In this document: positions 3,805-38,711 of the stretch, piece after piece
How positions within the stretch are numbered: the first letter of the stretch is position 1
How the letters are laid out: each line of letters starts with the position of its first letter
Assembly: GCF_002806995.1 (NCBI RefSeq)
Contig: NZ_NIHE01000009.1
Coordinates: forward strand, 118,742-182,741
Length of the DNA stretch: 64,000 nucleotides
From: Confluentibacter lentus
GTDB lineage: Bacteria > Bacteroidota > Bacteroidia > Flavobacteriales > Flavobacteriaceae
Reading direction: 5' to 3'
The notes under the pieces: generated by a model
Database searches by the model: none
Told to the model about the DNA's origin: nothing
What the model saw: the letters and a program-made list of their open reading frames with translations, nothing else
Position numbers and translations under genes: made by a program

Positions 3805-5352
3805 ATGATTAAAAAAGTAAATCAAATTATATTTATGCTATGTGTATTAATAGCATTTATATCTTGTAAGGATAAATCTCAACCTCAATCAGAAACGTCT
3901 AATGAAGCACCTAAATATGAGGAGACTTGGAAATCGCTCGCAACCAACGATCGAGAGCCAGAATGGTTTAAGGACGCCAAGTTCGGTATTTATTTTCATT
4001 GGGGACTTTATAGTGTTCCAGCGTTTGATAACGAATGGTACCCAAGATGGATGTATGTGCCTGGGAGAACAGAATGGGGCGGAAAGATCTTTGAGCACCA
4101 ACAAAAAACCTATGGGCCTTTGTCCGAATTCAATTATCACGATTTTATTCCCATGTTTACGGCGGAGCATTTTGATGCCAAGGAATGGGCAGATTTATTT
4201 AAAAAAGCGGGGGCTAAATTTGCAGGTCCCGTAGCGCAACACCATGATGGATTTGCTATGTGGGGCAGTAAGGTAAATCCTTGGAACGTTAAGGATATGG
4301 GGCCTAAAAAAGATATTTTAGGTGAATTATATGTCGAATTGAAAAAGAACGACATGAAAACCATTGCCACATTCCACCATGCCAGAGTGTTGCAACGTTA
4401 CGCGCAAGATACGTTACAATGGGCTAAGAATTCATCTAATCCAGGATGGGATAGCCATTATCCATATCATCCAGATTATGTCACTTCTACAACCGACCCA
4501 AAACTCAGGATGCTTTATGGAAACATGCCAGAGGATGAGTTTCATGAGTATTGGTTAAATCAAGTGAATGAGGTGGTGGATAATTATGCGCCCGACATCA
4601 TTTGGTTTGATTCGTGGCTAGATAAAATTCCAGAAAATTACCGTCAAAAAATGGTAGCACACCATTTCAACACAGCCGTTTCTAGAGGTCAACAACCCAT
4701 TGCCGCTTATAAGCAGGAAGATTTACCTGCAAATGTTGGGATGTTGGATATAGAGCAAGGTGGAAAAACGGGTCTTTCAGACGATTATTGGCTAACGGAT
4801 ATTACCATAAGTAATTATAGTTGGAGTTATATTACAGGACAAACTTATAAAAAACCAGATTTAGTTATCAGAAACATGATTGATGTGTGGAGCAAAAGAG
4901 GTATCGTATTGCTGAATATTTCACCAAAAGCAGATGGTACCATTATAGATGAGCAAAGACAAGTATTGTTAGCTATTGGTAAATGGATTGATAAGCATAA
5001 AGAAGCTGTATATGAAACCAGGGCCTTTACCACATTTGGTTATGGTGAAGCAGCATTTGAAAAAGGGGAGTTTGGAGGACAATCGGCTACCATGGATTAT
5101 AATGAAAAAGATATTCGTTTCATGGTATCGAAAGATAATAAGCATTTATATATTTTCTCATTAGGACTTCCTAAAGCCGAATCAAATATCGAAATTCGTA
5201 CACCTATAACATCCAAAATAAAAAACGTATCCGTTGTTGGTAGTGGAGTAGATTTAAAATGGACTTTTTTCGATAACAAATTAACGCTTACAACACCAAG
5301 TGTATCACAAATGGATGATATAGCAACGGTGTTTAAGGTCGATTTTGAATAA
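3805..5352 (+). CDS. Alpha-L-fucosidase, GH29 lipoprotein
   Basis: A 515-residue lipoprotein with signal MIKKVNQIIFMLCVLIAFISC (lipobox Cys21). The body is a GH29 alpha-L-fucosidase: EWFKDAKFGIYFHWGLYSVPAF near residue 52, AGAKFAGPVAQHHDGFAMW near 130, and a WFD motif whose Asp269 is the expected nucleophile. A C-terminal beta domain runs from about residue 410. GH29 enzymes release alpha-linked fucose with retention of configuration. A lipidated enzyme would act in the periplasm or at the cell surface, suggesting use of fucosylated algal or glycan substrates. A GH63-type glucosidase lies downstream, but hairpins separate the two, so they are probably separate transcripts. Confidence 0.9.
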   Translation: MIKKVNQIIFMLCVLIAFISCKDKSQPQSETSNEAPKYEETWKSLATNDREPEWFKDAKFGIYFHWGLYSVPAFDNEWYPRWMYVPGRTEWGGKIFEHQQKTYGPLSEFNYHDFIPMFTAEHFDAKEWADLFKKAGAKFAGPVAQHHDGFAMWGSKVNPWNVKDMGPKKDILGELYVELKKNDMKTIATFHHARVLQRYAQDTLQWAKNSSNPGWDSHYPYHPDYVTSTTDPKLRMLYGNMPEDEFHEYWLNQVNEVVDNYAPDIIWFDSWLDKIPENYRQKMVAHHFNTAVSRGQQPIAAYKQEDLPANVGMLDIEQGGKTGLSDDYWLTDITISNYSWSYITGQTYKKPDLVIRNMIDVWSKRGIVLLNISPKADGTIIDEQRQVLLAIGKWIDKHKEAVYETRAFTTFGYGEAAFEKGEFGGQSATMDYNEKDIRFMVSKDNKHLYIFSLGLPKAESNIEIRTPITSKIKNVSVVGSGVDLKWTFFDNKLTLTTPSVSQMDDIATVFKVDFE

Positions 5353-33518: not shown

Positions 33519-36500
33519 TTACTTCTTAAGTACCCTCACATTCATTTCCTCAATCTTTTTATCGGATAGGATGGAAGGTGCTCCAAATAATAAATCGTCG
33601 CTCGTGCCTGTTTTTGGGAATGCCATCACTTCACGTATGGATGCTTTTTTCTCTAAAATCATCATCAATCTATCTACGCCCCAAGCAATACCGCCGTGTG
33701 GTGGCGCACCATAGTGGAACGCTTTGTACATGGTACCGACGCTTTTTAGCATCTCCTCTTTGTTGTAGCCCATGTTTTTATAGGTGGCTTCCAAAATTTC
33801 GGGTTTGTGCGCACGAATAGATCCACCGCCGATTTCATAACCATTTAATATTAAATCGTATTGTTGGGCAATGATGCTGCCAATTTCTTCTTCTTTGCCG
33901 TTCATGTGTTTTTCAATATCATAAACTGCTGGCATGGAGAATGGGTTGTGGGTAAACGTCCATCGGCCTTCATCCGTTTTTTCAAACATGGGGAAATCAA
34001 TCACCCACGCCGGACGTAATTCCTTCGGATTGATTAAATGCAACATACTACCCAATTCTTGACGCACCGCATCCAAAGCTTTGTTGGACGTGGCGTAATC
34101 AGCAGCCGAGAAAAATACGATATCGCCCACTTGAGCATTGGTGGTTTTTATGATTCCTGCTGCAATATCTTCACCTAAAAATTTAATAATAGGTGATTGC
34201 AAATCGGTTTCATTAACAATGATATATGCCAAACCACCTAAGCCATGTTGTTGCGCTGTGGCCGTTAATTTTTCAATTTGTCCTTTGGATAAACGCTTGT
34301 TGCCTTGTTCTTCAGCAGACACTTTGATACATTTTACAATACCGCCTTCTTCAATCGGTTTGCTAAATACTTGAAACGTCGTGTCTTTTACAATATCCGT
34401 AATGTCTTGAAGTTTTAATCCGAAACGCAAATCGGGTCGATCGCAACCATAATAATACATGGCATCTTGATAGGTAATGACTTCAAACGGACGCAATATC
34501 CATTTGTTACCGTATATTTTAGTAACCACTTCGTTAAACATTTTCGTGTTTAAATCGATGATTTGTTGCATGCTGGCATACGCCACTTCCATATCCAATT
34601 GGGTAAATTCCGGTTGACGGTCGCCACGGGAATCTTCATCCCTAAAACAACGTGCAATTTGGAAATACTTTTCGTAACCACTTACCATCAACATTTGTTT
34701 AAATTGTTGCGGTGCTTGTGGTAAGGTGTAAAAAGCGCCAGGCTGTTTGCGGGTCGGTACAATGAATTCACGAGCCCCTTCATCGGTTCCGGCACTTAAA
34801 ATCGGCGTTTCAATTTCCAAGAAATGTTCTGCATCCAAAATATCACGCAGTAATTTGATAACTTTGTGGCGGTTGACAATCACACGTCGCACATCATCAT
34901 TTCTGTGGTCTAAAAATTTATATTGAAAACGTATGGTTTCGTTGGTTTTTGTCGCACGTTTTATTTCAAAAGGAAGTGTTCTGGATAGGTTTAAAATATC
35001 CAATTCATTAGCTTCCAGTTCTATTTTTCCTGTTCGTAAAGCGGCGTTATAATCATCTTCTTTACGTTGAACAATTGCGCCAGTAACCGTTATAACCGAC
35101 TCTGGTTTTAGCTTCACCAGTTCATCTAAATTAGGAAACGATTCCCTACTTAAACGCACTTGGAAAATCTCGGTACTGGAATCGCGTAAATCAATAAAAA
35201 TCAATTCACCATGATCACGAACACTAGAAACCCAACCCGCAAAGGTTACTTTTTCGGAAATATTAGCTTCTGAAATAGCGGTGATTAGGTGCGTTCGGTA
35301 TTCCTCTTTTATGATGATGGGGATTTGTGGTAATACTTCTTCTTTGGTTGTTGGTTGTTGGTTGGTTGGTGTTTGTTGTTGAGTCGTTTGTTGTTTAGTT
35401 GTGCTTCCGTCTTCGGTCTTCTGTCTTCGGTCATCTCCAGCAAGCATATTTAAAATGCCTTCACGAACTACTTTTCCAGACGCGCCTTTTCCAATAATTT
35501 CAATCACTTTACCGACTAAAATACCTGCTTTTCCTTGGTTTCCAGCTTTAATATCGTTGGCAGTCGCTTCGTTTTCTGAAATGACTTTAGCGATGGCATC
35601 TTGAATTTTTTCTTCGGAAATGCTATTGTCTTCGAAATAGGTTTTATAGTCGAAACTAGCATTTTCAAGTAACGATTTAATAGCATTTTGAACCAATACC
35701 ACCGTTACTTTTTCATCTTTAAATAATCTGAAAATGGTACTAAAATCCTGAATATTTTCGATTTTAGAATAGTCTTCAGGTTTTATATTATTTGCCAAGG
35801 TTTTTGCAACAAACGAGGCGTCATTCAATTCGTTATTAATAGTCACAAAGGTTTCCGAACGTAAGGAATCTGCCGTAAAAAATTTAGCATCTTGGGGCAA
35901 TACTCCGCCTTGAATTAAAATAGATTCCACCGCAAAAGGAAGCGTTTTGGTATCCACGTGAATGGCTTCCACCGCACTTTTAATATTGACGAAAGGCAAA
36001 TCGGGCTCGGAAATAAAACGGTAATCCGCCTCAAATTCCTTTTTACGCATGGTTTTGGTTTGCTTTAAATCGGCATCCCATAAAACCGTGGTTTGATCAG
36101 GTCTAAATTCTTTATGCTCAATATAATAATTGAATTGTTTTTCAACTTCCTCCTTTAAGGCATCGACCATAAACTTAAAGGAGTTCAAGTTTTTGATTTC
36201 GGTACGTGGATTTAAAGTATAACTATGTTTTTTACGAAGCGATACAGAAACATCCGATTTAAATTCCCCTTTTTCCAAATTGGCTTCAGAAATTTTTAAA
36301 TTTTGAACAATACGTTGAATGTATTGGGCATAAATGGAAGCATCTTCAATATGTCGAATACAAGGTTCGGTGACAATTTCAATCAACGGCACGCCAGCTT
36401 TGTTGAAATCGACTAGCGACACCGTTTTTTCGTGCATCAATTTAGCGGCATCTTCCTCAATATGAACTTGCGTTAAATTGACCGTAAACTGACTGCCATC

Positions 36501-36869
36501 ATTTCTGAAACACGATACTTGTCCGTCAGGAATAATCGGGTTATGAAACTGCGTAATTTGAATATTCTTCGGGTTATCCGGATATTCATAATGTTTTCTA
36601 TCCCACGAAATAATCTCGTTTTCAAAAGAAGAATTCACTGCTTTTCCAAAATAAATGGCTTTGGTAATCGCTTCTTTATTAATGGCGGGCAAAACACCCA
36701 TTTGTCCCGTACAAACAGAGCAGATGTTTTGGTTTGGGATGTCTATTTCTTGATTCGGACAAGAACAGAACAACTTGGTTTTTGTGTTCAACCGAACGTG
36801 TGTTTCCAATCCGATAACCAACTCTAAATCGTGCGCTTTTAATGCTGCGTCTAATTGTTCCAGTTCCAT
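33519..36869 (-). CDS. gatB-aspS: GatB::AspRS fusion (amidotransferase subunit B + aspartyl-tRNA synthetase)
   Basis: One 1116-residue reading frame joins two complete enzymes. Residues 1-478 are GatB: LVIGLETHVRLNTKTKLFCSC, with zinc Cys pairs CSC and CSVC, HYEYPDNPKNIQITQF, HIEEDAAKLMHE, and a full C-terminal helical/YqeY tail (KAGILVGKVIEIIGKGASGKVVREGILNML). Residues 479-509 are a Gln/Thr/Lys linker. Residues about 522-1116 are AspRS: OB-fold (VTFAGWVSSVRDHGELIFIDLRD), motif 2 (CFRDEDSRGDRQPEFTQLDMEV), the bacterial GAD insertion, and motif 3 (GGIAWGVDRLMMIL). No Met lies between 477 and the OB-fold, so AspRS has no start of its own. The expected task is to charge tRNA with Asp and amidate Asp-tRNA(Asn) (and perhaps Glu-tRNA(Gln)) within one tethered complex. 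The start overlaps the gatA stop by one base. I faintly recall an automated name for such fusions, but no experiments. Confidence 0.95.
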   Translation of the reverse strand: MELEQLDAALKAHDLELVIGLETHVRLNTKTKLFCSCPNQEIDIPNQNICSVCTGQMGVLPAINKEAITKAIYFGKAVNSSFENEIISWDRKHYEYPDNPKNIQITQFHNPIIPDGQVSCFRNDGSQFTVNLTQVHIEEDAAKLMHEKTVSLVDFNKAGVPLIEIVTEPCIRHIEDASIYAQYIQRIVQNLKISEANLEKGEFKSDVSVSLRKKHSYTLNPRTEIKNLNSFKFMVDALKEEVEKQFNYYIEHKEFRPDQTTVLWDADLKQTKTMRKKEFEADYRFISEPDLPFVNIKSAVEAIHVDTKTLPFAVESILIQGGVLPQDAKFFTADSLRSETFVTINNELNDASFVAKTLANNIKPEDYSKIENIQDFSTIFRLFKDEKVTVVLVQNAIKSLLENASFDYKTYFEDNSISEEKIQDAIAKVISENEATANDIKAGNQGKAGILVGKVIEIIGKGASGKVVREGILNMLAGDDRRQKTEDGSTTKQQTTQQQTPTNQQPTTKEEVLPQIPIIIKEEYRTHLITAISEANISEKVTFAGWVSSVRDHGELIFIDLRDSSTEIFQVRLSRESFPNLDELVKLKPESVITVTGAIVQRKEDDYNAALRTGKIELEANELDILNLSRTLPFEIKRATKTNETIRFQYKFLDHRNDDVRRVIVNRHKVIKLLRDILDAEHFLEIETPILSAGTDEGAREFIVPTRKQPGAFYTLPQAPQQFKQMLMVSGYEKYFQIARCFRDEDSRGDRQPEFTQLDMEVAYASMQQIIDLNTKMFNEVVTKIYGNKWILRPFEVITYQDAMYYYGCDRPDLRFGLKLQDITDIVKDTTFQVFSKPIEEGGIVKCIKVSAEEQGNKRLSKGQIEKLTATAQQHGLGGLAYIIVNETDLQSPIIKFLGEDIAAGIIKTTNAQVGDIVFFSAADYATSNKALDAVRQELGSMLHLINPKELRPAWVIDFPMFEKTDEGRWTFTHNPFSMPAVYDIEKHMNGKEEEIGSIIAQQYDLILNGYEIGGGSIRAHKPEILEATYKNMGYNKEEMLKSVGTMYKAFHYGAPPHGGIAWGVDRLMMILEKKASIREVMAFPKTGTSDDLLFGAPSILSDKKIEEMNVRVLKK

Positions 36870-38269
36870 TATATCATGTCTTTTAAGAAGTTAGCAAACT
36901 TCAAAACAAGTTCGTCATTATTTTTTGCGGCCGTTATTTGCAAGCCAGTTTCTGTGCCTTGTGGGATGGTTAACGTCGGTAACTGTCCTAAACTAAAACC
37001 AACGGTGTATGCATCACTTAAATACATGGCATGTGGGTCTTTTAAACTATCACCAATTTTAGGCGGTGTGCCTGGTGTTACAGGGGATAAGATGATATCG
37101 ACTTCCTTAAAATCCTTTTCAAAATTTTCGGAAATAGCATCTCTTAAAGTCAATCCTTTCAGATAAATTTCATCTGAAAACCCTTGGGATAACACTTGAT
37201 TTCCTCCAACAATGCGTCGTTTTGTTTCTTCTGAAAAATTTTCAGAACGCGTGATGGCATACGATTCTTTAAGGTTTTTATCTTCAATACGATTACCGTA
37301 ATTGCTTCCATCCAATCGAGATAAATTGGAAGCCGTTTCAGCCATTGCTAGGGTATAATAAGTTGAAACCAAAATATCGGATTTAAAGAAATCAAGTTCT
37401 TTGACTTCAATGCCTTTGGCTTTTATTTTTTCGATGGTCGCTAAAAAATCAGCTTTTATTTTAGAATCAATCGCATCATTTTCAATAAAGTTTTTGAAAT
37501 AGCCGATGGTTTTAATACCTTCGGAATTTGAAATGCTATCCTTACTAATTTCCGCGGAAGCGTAAGTCGTTTGATCTTTGATATCTTTTCCGCTCATCAC
37601 ATTCAAGACAATACGAATATCCTCAACCGATTTGGCAATAGGACCCACACAATCTGTTGATGAGGCATACGCCATCAATCCGTAACGCGAAATACGTCCG
37701 TAAGTCGGTTTTAAACCATAAACATGGTTGTAACCTGCGGGTTGGCGTACCGAACCGCCTGTATCGCCTCCAATGGAAAATACGGTGTAATCTTTGGCAA
37801 CATTTACTGCTGAACCACCGCTAGAACCACCACCAACTAAATCGGGGTTGTTAGCATTTTTTACAGCTCCAAAAATGGTGTTTTCGCTGGAAGACCCATG
37901 TCCGAAACTATCACAATTCTCTTTCACGATAGGAATAGCACCAGCATCCAATAATTTTTGAATCGCCGTCGCCGTGTAAGCTGATTTATAGTTTTTCAAC
38001 AAATTGGAACTTGCTGTGGTGTACGTGCCTTGAACCATATACACATCTTTAATCCCAAACGGAATGCCTTCCAATAAGCCGATAGACTCTCCTTTAGCAA
38101 TTTTAGCATCCACTTTTACTGCCAATTGCAACGCTAAATCATCTAATAATGAATTAACGGTGTTGTTCGTGTTCTCTTTTAAAGCGGTTAATTTTTGCTG
38201 AACCAATGCCGCGCAAGATATTTTCTTATCCGCCAATTGCTGATGAATTTTATGTATTTGAGAGTCCAT
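36869..38269 (-). CDS. gatA: Asp/Glu-tRNA amidotransferase subunit A
   Basis: A 466-residue amidase-signature enzyme that frees ammonia from Gln or Asn and channels it to GatB. The Ser-cisSer-Lys triad is visible as Lys74 (GIPFGIKDV), Ser149 (GGGSSGGSA) and Ser173 (GGDTGGSVRQPAGY). SFGHGSSSENTIFGAVKNANNPDLVGG precedes the cis-Ser, and LSPVTPGTPPKIGD lies near residue 400. It is the middle gene of the operon: 2 bp after gatC, and its TAA shares its last A with the ATG of gatB::aspS, which favours translational coupling and equal amounts. Confidence 0.96.
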   Translation of the reverse strand: MDSQIHKIHQQLADKKISCAALVQQKLTALKENTNNTVNSLLDDLALQLAVKVDAKIAKGESIGLLEGIPFGIKDVYMVQGTYTTASSNLLKNYKSAYTATAIQKLLDAGAIPIVKENCDSFGHGSSSENTIFGAVKNANNPDLVGGGSSGGSAVNVAKDYTVFSIGGDTGGSVRQPAGYNHVYGLKPTYGRISRYGLMAYASSTDCVGPIAKSVEDIRIVLNVMSGKDIKDQTTYASAEISKDSISNSEGIKTIGYFKNFIENDAIDSKIKADFLATIEKIKAKGIEVKELDFFKSDILVSTYYTLAMAETASNLSRLDGSNYGNRIEDKNLKESYAITRSENFSEETKRRIVGGNQVLSQGFSDEIYLKGLTLRDAISENFEKDFKEVDIILSPVTPGTPPKIGDSLKDPHAMYLSDAYTVGFSLGQLPTLTIPQGTETGLQITAAKNNDELVLKFANFLKDMI

Positions 38270-38271
38270 AA

Positions 38272-38541
38272 TTATTCTTCTATAACTTTAGAAACTACCA
38301 AATAGCCGCCTTTTTCTTTAGGGAAGTTTTCGATGATGATTTGTTTTTCAATTGTAGAACTTTCAATCACCACATCATCTCTTAGATCGTTTAAAGACAC
38401 GTAATTATTACGATTATTATTAAAAGAGTTATTATTTGTTGGCTGTGCATTTTTAATCACATCAAATAATTTGTTCACAGCCTCACTGGGCTGGGCTCCT
38501 TTAATACTCGACAATACGTCGACTGTCATAATTTTACTCAT
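38272..38541 (-). CDS. gatC: Divergent GatC with replaced, Asn-rich N-terminal half
   Basis: An 89-residue protein. The C-terminal half, LNDLRDDVVIESSTIEKQIIIENFPKEKGGYLVVSKVIEE, matches the GatC tail pattern LREDxV..S....NAP..xxGyf.VPkVIE that wraps around GatA and GatB. The usual N-terminal half (I..LA.LA.L.lseeE) is missing; instead there is MSKIMTVDVLSSIKGAQPSEAVNKLFDVIK and an Asn-rich link NNNSFNNNRNN (about residues 37-47). Position as first gene before gatA supports GatC. The Asn codons early in the first gene of an Asn-tRNA-forming operon may add a second sensing point. A terminator-like hairpin ends 17 bp before its ATG. Confidence 0.8.
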   Translation of the reverse strand: MSKIMTVDVLSSIKGAQPSEAVNKLFDVIKNAQPTNNNSFNNNRNNYVSLNDLRDDVVIESSTIEKQIIIENFPKEKGGYLVVSKVIEE

Positions 38542-38558: not shown

Positions 38559-38588
38559 AAAAAAAGCCTTCCAAACTTGGAAGGCTTT
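38559..38588 (-). terminator. Leader terminator (attenuator) before gatC
   Basis: On the reverse strand, AAAGCCTTCCAA (38577-38588) and its complement (38563-38574) form a 12-bp stem, with seven T in a row (38559-38565) at its 3' edge. The hairpin stands 17 bp before the gatC ATG. No other reverse-strand gene lies upstream for it to end, apart from the 14-codon Asn-rich leader. The segment GGAAGGGAAGG (38611-38621), beginning at the last base of the leader stop, can pair with CCTTCC of the 5' arm (38579-38584) and so prevent the terminator. Confidence 0.85.
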
Positions 38589-38620
38589 ATATTTTATTTT
38601 TAAACAATAACCTTCCCTTC

Positions 38621-38665
38621 CTAAAATTTAGGATTATTGAAATTATTATTGTTATTATTTATCAT
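38621..38665 (-). CDS. Asn-rich leader peptide of the gatCAB-aspS operon
   Basis: A 14-codon ORF, MINNNNNNFNNPKF, with eight Asn codons (seven AAT, one AAC) and a TAG stop. It begins about 15-20 nt after a TTG/TAtaTTTG promoter on the same strand and lies between that promoter and the leader terminator. The A-rich AAAAAAGTATTT before the ATG is a normal Bacteroidota initiation region. Shortage of Asn-tRNA(Asn) should stall ribosomes on the Asn run, leave the segment at 38611-38621 free to pair with the terminator's 5' arm, and let transcription reach gatC. The layout copies the his/trp leader principle. It is too short for ordinary gene finding. The role is inferred from structure; no expression data are available. 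Confidence 0.8.
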   Translation of the reverse strand: MINNNNNNFNNPKF

Positions 38666-38684
38666 AAATACTTTTTTATGCTGC

Positions 38685-38711
38685 CAAATATATATAGAAA
38701 TTATAAATCAA
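38685..38711 (-). promoter_or_regulatory. Promoter of the Asn leader / gatCAB-aspS operon
   Basis: Reading on the reverse strand: TTG (38709-38711), 16-nt spacer, then TAtaTTTG (38685-38692), close to the Bacteroidota consensus TTG-N17-23-TAnnTTTG. Transcription would begin near 38680, about 15 nt before the leader ATG. Confidence 0.65.

Follow-up and report, generated by a model that had tools for sequence, protein, structure and literature searches.

We analyzed a window of 64,000 nucleotides (nt) from Confluentibacter lentus (assembly GCF_002806995.1, contig NZ_NIHE01000009.1, positions 118,742 to 182,741 of the forward strand), and give all coordinates below as positions within that window. 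Its reverse strand carries an operon, gatC-gatA-gatB::aspS, and upstream of gatC, at 38692-38563, a short open reading frame (ORF) rich in asparagine (Asn) codons followed by an intrinsic terminator. In all likelihood, the operon is controlled by this stretch through ribosome-mediated transcription attenuation, with charged tRNA-Asn as the signal sensed. An earlier reading of the DNA, made from the sequence alone, had proposed such an attenuator. Comparative anatomy strongly supports that part of the sequence-only reading, but the role given to the operon has to be changed, and a third pairing state had been missed. The first gene, gatC (38272..38541), encodes 89 amino acids (aa) with an Asn-rich linker; it scores 19.5 bits with TIGR00135 and 20.8 bits with Pfam GatC, both below cut-off, and its position helps the assignment. 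Next comes gatA (36869..38269; 466 aa), with 433.1 bits for TIGR00132 (cut-off 481.1) and 371.6 bits for Pfam Amidase. The third gene is a fusion, gatB::aspS (33519..36869; 1116 aa), in which GatB and the aspartyl-tRNA synthetase (AspRS) both exceed their NCBIfam cut-offs. This fusion is intact in 35/35 relatives tested, a test that has 22 of 57 loci, the window's own included, outside it. A linker rich in Gln and Thr joins GatB and AspRS into a single protein.

All parts of the leader-terminator element lie on the reverse strand, and the gene upstream of it is divergent. The operon promoter is predicted from a -7 box, TATATTTG (38685..38692), of the TAnnTTTG type; a box of this type precedes the leader in all 35 family loci that have one (see below). 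In F. psychrophilum, the primary sigma factor has TAnnTTTG as its -7 consensus (PMC9723704). The TTG box that the sequence-only reading had added to the promoter falls outside the 70% consensus of the same 35 loci. The leader ORF, MINNNNNNFNNPKF (38621..38665), has 8 Asn codons among 14; its ATG, formerly placed 15-20 nt past the promoter, is at 38665, exactly 19 nt from the -7 box, and its TAG stop codon ends at 38621. The Asn codons AACAATAAT (38645..38653) are segment 1 and form the 5' arm of a leader hairpin, their partners being the last G of a GGAAGG and TTATTGTT. An inner hairpin, CCTAA-ATT-TTAGG (38620..38632), pairs the proline (Pro) codon with the stop codon and the G that follows. 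From the last base of the stop (38621) runs GGAAGGGAAGG, which holds segment 2 as well as a second, overlapping GGAAGG that starts on that same base. Segment 2 is the GGAAGG located 4 nt past the stop (38611..38616); it is a copy of the terminator's 3' arm, and would be the 5' arm of an antiterminator. It is followed by TTATTGTT (38603..38610), which serves the leader hairpin (1:2) as its 3' arm. Segment 3, CCTTCC (38579..38584), is common to the antiterminator and the terminator, and segment 4 is the GGAAGG of the terminator (38572-38567). The terminator itself, AAAGCCTTCC-AAGTTT-GGAAGGCTTT and then a T run, occupies 38563..38588. The predicted energies in the window are -11.9 kcal/mol for the leader hairpin, -10.1 for the antiterminator and -15.8 for the terminator. 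The Asn-rich leader with its TAG, GGAAGGGAAGG, and, before gatC, the hairpin whose 5' arm holds CCTTCC, together with its T run, were all seen where the sequence-only reading had placed them; the hairpin has 11 bp at minimum energy, not 12.

To define the family distribution of the element, 397 family genomes were searched with GatA, which gave 58 strong matches (>750 bits). One of these (G170) was left out, as a contig end cuts its locus, and the region upstream of gatC was read in the remaining 57. Leader and terminator occur together in 35/57 loci, and neither occurs in 22/57; that is, the terminator is present in 35/35 leader loci and 0/22 leaderless loci. One leaderless locus (L062) still has a short ORF with three Asn. 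A second set came from a pattern scan of a one-genome-per-species collection, with the phenylalanine (Phe) codon left open. Among the 77 stretches that matched, 69 lie before gatC, and the other 8 are chance matches that have neither gatC nor gatA (L075, L084, L095, L112, L116, L127, L134 and L144). The scan pattern required Asn codons, CC and TAGG, and only the 35 loci found through GatA are unselected for these features; in those 35, TAGG is kept in 35/35 and Pro in 34/35. The two sets overlap, and merging them gave 104 rows, 78 of them distinct. CCTTCC is found in all 104 rows, before gatC throughout with the leader and GGAAGG kept.

The 78 distinct copies have a common layout, i.e., an Asn run, TTC-Asn-Asn-CCT, TAG-G, GGAAGG and a CCTTCC/GGAAGG terminator. 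Asn accounts for 7-10 of the last 14 codons. The Phe codon is TTC in 76 copies, TTT in 1 and TCT in 1, and the Pro codon is CCT in 77 and TCT in 1. The base after CCT is A in 77 copies and G in 1, while the residues past Pro are variable. The distance from the stop to GGAAGG is 4 nt in 56 copies, 5 nt in 20, 3 nt in 1 (L063) and 0 nt in 1 (L082). Four of the 56 copies with the 4-nt spacing, including that in the window, also have a GGAAGG that overlaps the stop. The element is real and highly conserved, far beyond chance.

A covariance model of the element was also run, with stricter filters, on 395 order-level and 395 phylum-level genomes. Among the order-level matches listed, copies of at least 88.7 bits occur in 6/395 genomes, and 6/6 adjoin gatC and gatA; the search of 395 phylum-level genomes found no full-score copy besides the window's own. 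The remaining matches listed score at most 46.6 bits and look like terminators, and none of the low-scoring matches that were given loci is near gatC or gatA. A wider spread of the element was accordingly rejected, as in the genomes searched full-score copies are found in the same family only and always by gatC and gatA. In the window's genome, no short ORF with at least 5 Asn was found in the 330 nt upstream of asnS or in the ~120 nt upstream of the free-standing aspS that are present in its locus.

For folding and alignment, 103 rows could be split by anchors, of which 78 are distinct, and dropping two mis-anchored rows (L014 and L056) left 76. The Polaribacter variant L082 could not be split in this way and is outside the folded set; in this variant (match 3855-3885, reverse strand), GGAAGG abuts the stop, the terminator arms are AAACCTTCC and GGAAGGTTT, and G follows CCT. 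The folded rows revealed the third structure mentioned above, in which the leader codons pair with GGAAGG-TTATTGTT (the leader hairpin, 1:2). It joins AACAATAAT to G-TTATTGTT, T-TTC to GAA-G of GGAAGG, and CCTA to TAGG, the last of these forming in 76/76 folded rows. When the segment that spans the Asn run through TTATTGTT is folded in isolation, the leader hairpin is its minimum-energy structure in 76/76 rows, and RNAalifold recovers it unprompted from 59 diverse aligned rows. The conservation of the Phe, Pro and stop codons is then explained by the pairing of the leader codons with GGAAGG-TTATTGTT. In the alignment, 96.4% of cells are paired, versus 42.8-63.5% with the partner slid. Two-sided changes occur in 28 cells, a number as high in 0/500 shuffles, and nearly all of them are within the terminator; e.g., the pair atop the terminator stem is A-U in 23 rows, shows a two-sided change in 22 and is unpaired in 12. 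Segment 3 is invariant in the 59 aligned rows, and the antiterminator pairing GGAAGG:CCTTCC is possible in 354/354 cells, which reflects conservation and not covariation. An alignment of relatives, which the sequence-only reading had suggested, shows that the Asn codons and stop position are kept in the leader copies and that compensatory changes occur in the terminator, but no such changes can be tested in the antiterminator.

The operon had been read as making Asn-tRNA from Asp-tRNA(Asn). GatC, GatA, GatB and AspRS are indeed all encoded together in it. However, the operon is not the sole source of Asn-tRNA, and the supply of Asn-tRNA as its only role was rejected, because the window's genome also encodes asparaginyl- and glutaminyl-tRNA synthetases (AsnRS, 607 bits, and GlnRS, 716 bits, both over cut-off). 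A second, free-standing AspRS-like protein is also present. The asparagine synthetase AsnA has no match in this genome, and AsnB has none over cut-off; two AsnB matches far below it are read as the GlmS and PurF ORFs. Since there is neither AsnA nor an AsnB over cut-off, the operon is best read as a route of asparagine biosynthesis on tRNA, and not only as a source of Asn-tRNA. It is important to consider that the tRNA-dependent pathway does not require AsnA and AsnB to be absent, but that their absence leaves it the only known route to asparagine. The fused AspRS contains the motif RDHG, as do 3/5 displayed structures, two of them named as Asp/Asn ligases; the other 2/5, of which one is named as an Asp ligase, have RDLG, and the free AspRS of this genome has RDKG. 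The variable residue of this motif matters for specificity, and the fused AspRS is likely non-discriminating. The tRNA-Asn, a single one among the 30 of 40 tRNA matches that were given loci, has U1-A72 (its pairing judged by eye), which a survey gives as needed for bacterial GatCAB (PMC4206432).

We also surveyed AsnB in the 397 family genomes, counting by hand the AsnB-family matches at E 1e-60. Such a match is missing in 36/58 genomes with this GatA, versus 30/339 without it. Several of the AsnB-family matches in GatCAB genomes (e.g., G110:C45:164094-165773) are ORFs of 600-660 aa. Since these ORFs may encode something other than asparagine synthetases, the number of genomes credited with a further route to asparagine may be an overestimate.

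From these features, among which the spacing between stop and GGAAGG and the conserved pairing of the leader hairpin are observed, we infer the following switch. If the leading edge of a ribosome with a stop codon in its A site is 13 nt away from that codon's first base, a ribosome at the leader's stop would cover 5-6 nt of the 6-nt GGAAGG at the observed spacings. When Asn-tRNA is plentiful, the ribosome would reach the TAG stop and GGAAGG would lie under its leading edge; with GGAAGG masked, CCTTCC would be free for the terminator, and transcription would stop short of gatC. During a shortage of Asn-tRNA, the ribosome would stall in the Asn run, which would break the leader hairpin and expose GGAAGG. 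CCTTCC, as soon as it is transcribed, could then be bound by GGAAGG, ahead of the 3' arm of the terminator, and RNA polymerase would read on. Without translation of the leader, GGAAGG would stay sequestered in the leader hairpin, with termination as the result. GatC, GatA and the GatB-fused AspRS would make asparagine on tRNA-Asn. Because the operon is predicted to do so, the molecule sensed would be the direct product of its enzymes. Asparagine synthesis would thereby be under end-product control, in a genome where neither AsnA nor an AsnB over cut-off was found.

Folding of the ribosome states proposed by the sequence-only reading gave a divided answer. With a ribosome stalled at Asn (four codons were tested) and the transcript ending at CCTTCC, the antiterminator (2:3) has a probability of at least 0.5 in 75/76 rows. 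Several observations, however, weigh against the attenuator or against the biosynthetic role that goes with it. Once the full leader is made, the terminator wins at equilibrium, and 2:3 is favored in only 0-5/76 rows across stall states; the switch therefore has to be kinetic. Classical leaders are likewise held to switch kinetically. An untranslated transcript cut at segment 3 favors 2:3 in 71/76 rows, so termination without translation would need the leader hairpin to form first, and in the window 2:3 displaces 1:2; together, these two results weaken the case that 1:2 brings about termination by default. Two-sided changes are lacking in the outer leader helix, where one side varies at a time (99.0% paired). 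Covariation is uninformative for the antiterminator, with 500/500 shuffles equal, and cannot test it because segments 2 and 3 barely vary. Controls with synonymous codons gave modest results: the leader fold beats random synonyms in 65/76 rows and permuted Asn codons in 48/76. The spacing between stop and GGAAGG deviates in L082 (0 nt) and L063 (3 nt), and 22/57 operons are without the element. Finally, an AsnB-family match also turns up in 22/58 GatCAB genomes, and the presence of the leader shows no relation to AsnB, which occurs in 12/35 leader versus 10/22 leaderless genomes.

The equilibrium result also bears on another explanation, in which the leader and terminator form a constitutive short transcript, acting either as a small RNA or as a constant brake, with termination that does not depend on Asn-tRNA. 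That the terminator wins in nearly all computed states is what such a transcript would show, yet a small RNA or fixed terminator needs neither an Asn run nor the terminator arm duplicated 4-5 nt past a stop codon, and the pattern occurs before gatC only, apart from the 8 chance matches. We regard this explanation as unlikely. In nascent-peptide arrest, of which TnaC is an example, a conserved NNNNFNNP peptide would instead stall the ribosome on a ligand. The very high conservation of the peptide fits this idea, and Phe is found in 68/69 matches of the scan that was agnostic to it (TTC in 67 and TTT in 1). However, the RNA level accounts for Phe, Pro and the stop (TTC with GAA of GGAAGG, and CCTA with TAGG), the change of Pro to Ser in L037 retains a U-G pair, and the residues beyond Pro vary even though their first base is A in 77/78 copies; arrest by the peptide is thus very unlikely. 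It is scarcely credible that the hairpin is the terminator of an upstream gene and that the Asn run merely reflects an AT-rich ORF that arose by accident: genomes like these have many short ORFs of that kind, and the nearest long upstream ORF is directed at gatC in 23/69 scan loci, but the upstream gene is divergent in the window and in 39/69 scan loci, a promoter box precedes the leader in 35/35, and leader and terminator come and go together. Almost no weight can be given to control by a T-box or other riboswitch, as Rfam at gathering score gives no match in the window, and its best match below threshold is Phe_leader (30.9 bits versus 55), with T-box not in that list. We therefore retain ribosome-mediated attenuation in response to charged tRNA-Asn.

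The sequence-only reading had held that relatives with the operon but without the element would speak against it, and this was found in part, in that 22/57 relatives keep the operon without leader and terminator. In 22/22 of these leaderless loci, there is another conserved element, GTAATTT, which starts 35-51 nt before gatC. TAATTT is also found in the last 60 nt before gatC in 4/35 leader loci. In the 22 leaderless relatives (e.g., L019, L024, L030 and L062), this element lies within the last 60 nt before gatC and in most of them reads AAAACTTTYGTAATTTTRC. Both forms adjoin the same neighbors, namely a putative gyrB (17 leader and 5 leaderless loci) and a second neighbor (7 and 11, respectively). 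On a GatA+GatB tree built by a quick method, the two forms are interleaved. At least 13 leader changes are required by this tree, or 8 if starred branches alone are counted, and the leader label is somewhat clustered on it (11/500 shuffles as low). The idea that the leader arose or disappeared just once was rejected, since this quick tree demands many changes. Because leader and terminator are absent jointly and another element is present, the pattern looks like replacement and not like the decay of one part, and loss or exchange seems to affect the entire switch.

Classical leader attenuators, e.g., those of his, trp, ilv, thr and phe, have an ORF with regulatory codons, alternative hairpins and a terminator before the first gene, and their operons make the amino acid that is sensed. 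The element described here is like them in these respects, its antiterminator hairpin and the product of its operon being predicted. Unlike them, it is specific for Asn, its stop codon belongs to a conserved hairpin, and the charged tRNA that it would sense is the predicted direct product of the enzymes. Genes for amidation are controlled by T-boxes in Clostridium, where the kind of operon, the tRNA-Asn charging signal and the use of attenuation are as proposed here. However, a T-box binds tRNA directly, whereas the sensor here would be the translating ribosome. To our knowledge, little is known about the coupling of transcription and translation in this phylum.

Clues to leader-peptide attenuation before amino-acid operons have been described in F. 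psychrophilum, a member of the same family, and such attenuation was proposed there for structured 5' elements; those named in the part of the paper available to us are pheA, hisG, ftsY, acsA, alaS and rimP, with neither Asn nor gatCAB among them (PMC9723704). Another study mentions short ORFs resembling leader peptides in Bacteroides (PMC7366714). A paper of 2010 states that leader-peptide systems were by then known from Proteobacteria and Actinobacteria only, and itself reports switching between sensing systems at one gene (PMC2965389). With regard to the operon, the survey cited above describes tRNA-dependent Asn synthesis beside AsnRS and GlnRS in Deinococcus, Thermus and Bdellovibrio, which, like the window's genome, have AsnRS, GlnRS and GatCAB, lack AsnA and AsnB, and have a tRNA-Asn with U1-A72 (PMC4206432). 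The same text lists Bacteroidetes among its clades; in the group with such synthesis, it saw a second AspRS, of the archaeal type, only in Deinococcus-Thermus, whereas that considered here is of bacterial type and fused to GatB (PMC4206432). In agreement with the sequence-only reading, no description of an Asn-specific leader peptide was found among the papers listed in searches of the open-licence literature, supplements excluded, which does not prove its absence; in the full texts of PMC2965389 and PMC1262725, neither 'asparagin' nor 'gatC' occurs.

The element is thus very likely an Asn-specific ribosome-mediated attenuator, with a new specificity and a new target operon within a known class of mechanism. 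We further think it probable that it is the first asparagine-specific leader-peptide attenuator, that its leader codons, stop and sequestering hairpin form one overlapping RNA and protein code, and that flavobacteria have exchanged it repeatedly, as a whole, with a second, conserved promoter that is leaderless. If so, leader-peptide attenuation would be extended to asparagine and to tRNA-dependent amino-acid synthesis, with a signal made by the controlled enzymes. Where GatCAB occurs alongside AsnRS and GlnRS, it would likewise gain a function, i.e., end-product-controlled asparagine synthesis. With its 78 distinct natural copies, the element would also be a compact, testable attenuator.

An additional point concerns GatC, whose Asn-rich linker (TNNNSFNNNRNN) occurs in both forms of the operon, the mean number of Asn per protein being 10.9 in leader and 11.9 in leaderless genomes. 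Given its resemblance to the leader peptide, this linker might in its own right make translation slower at low Asn-tRNA.
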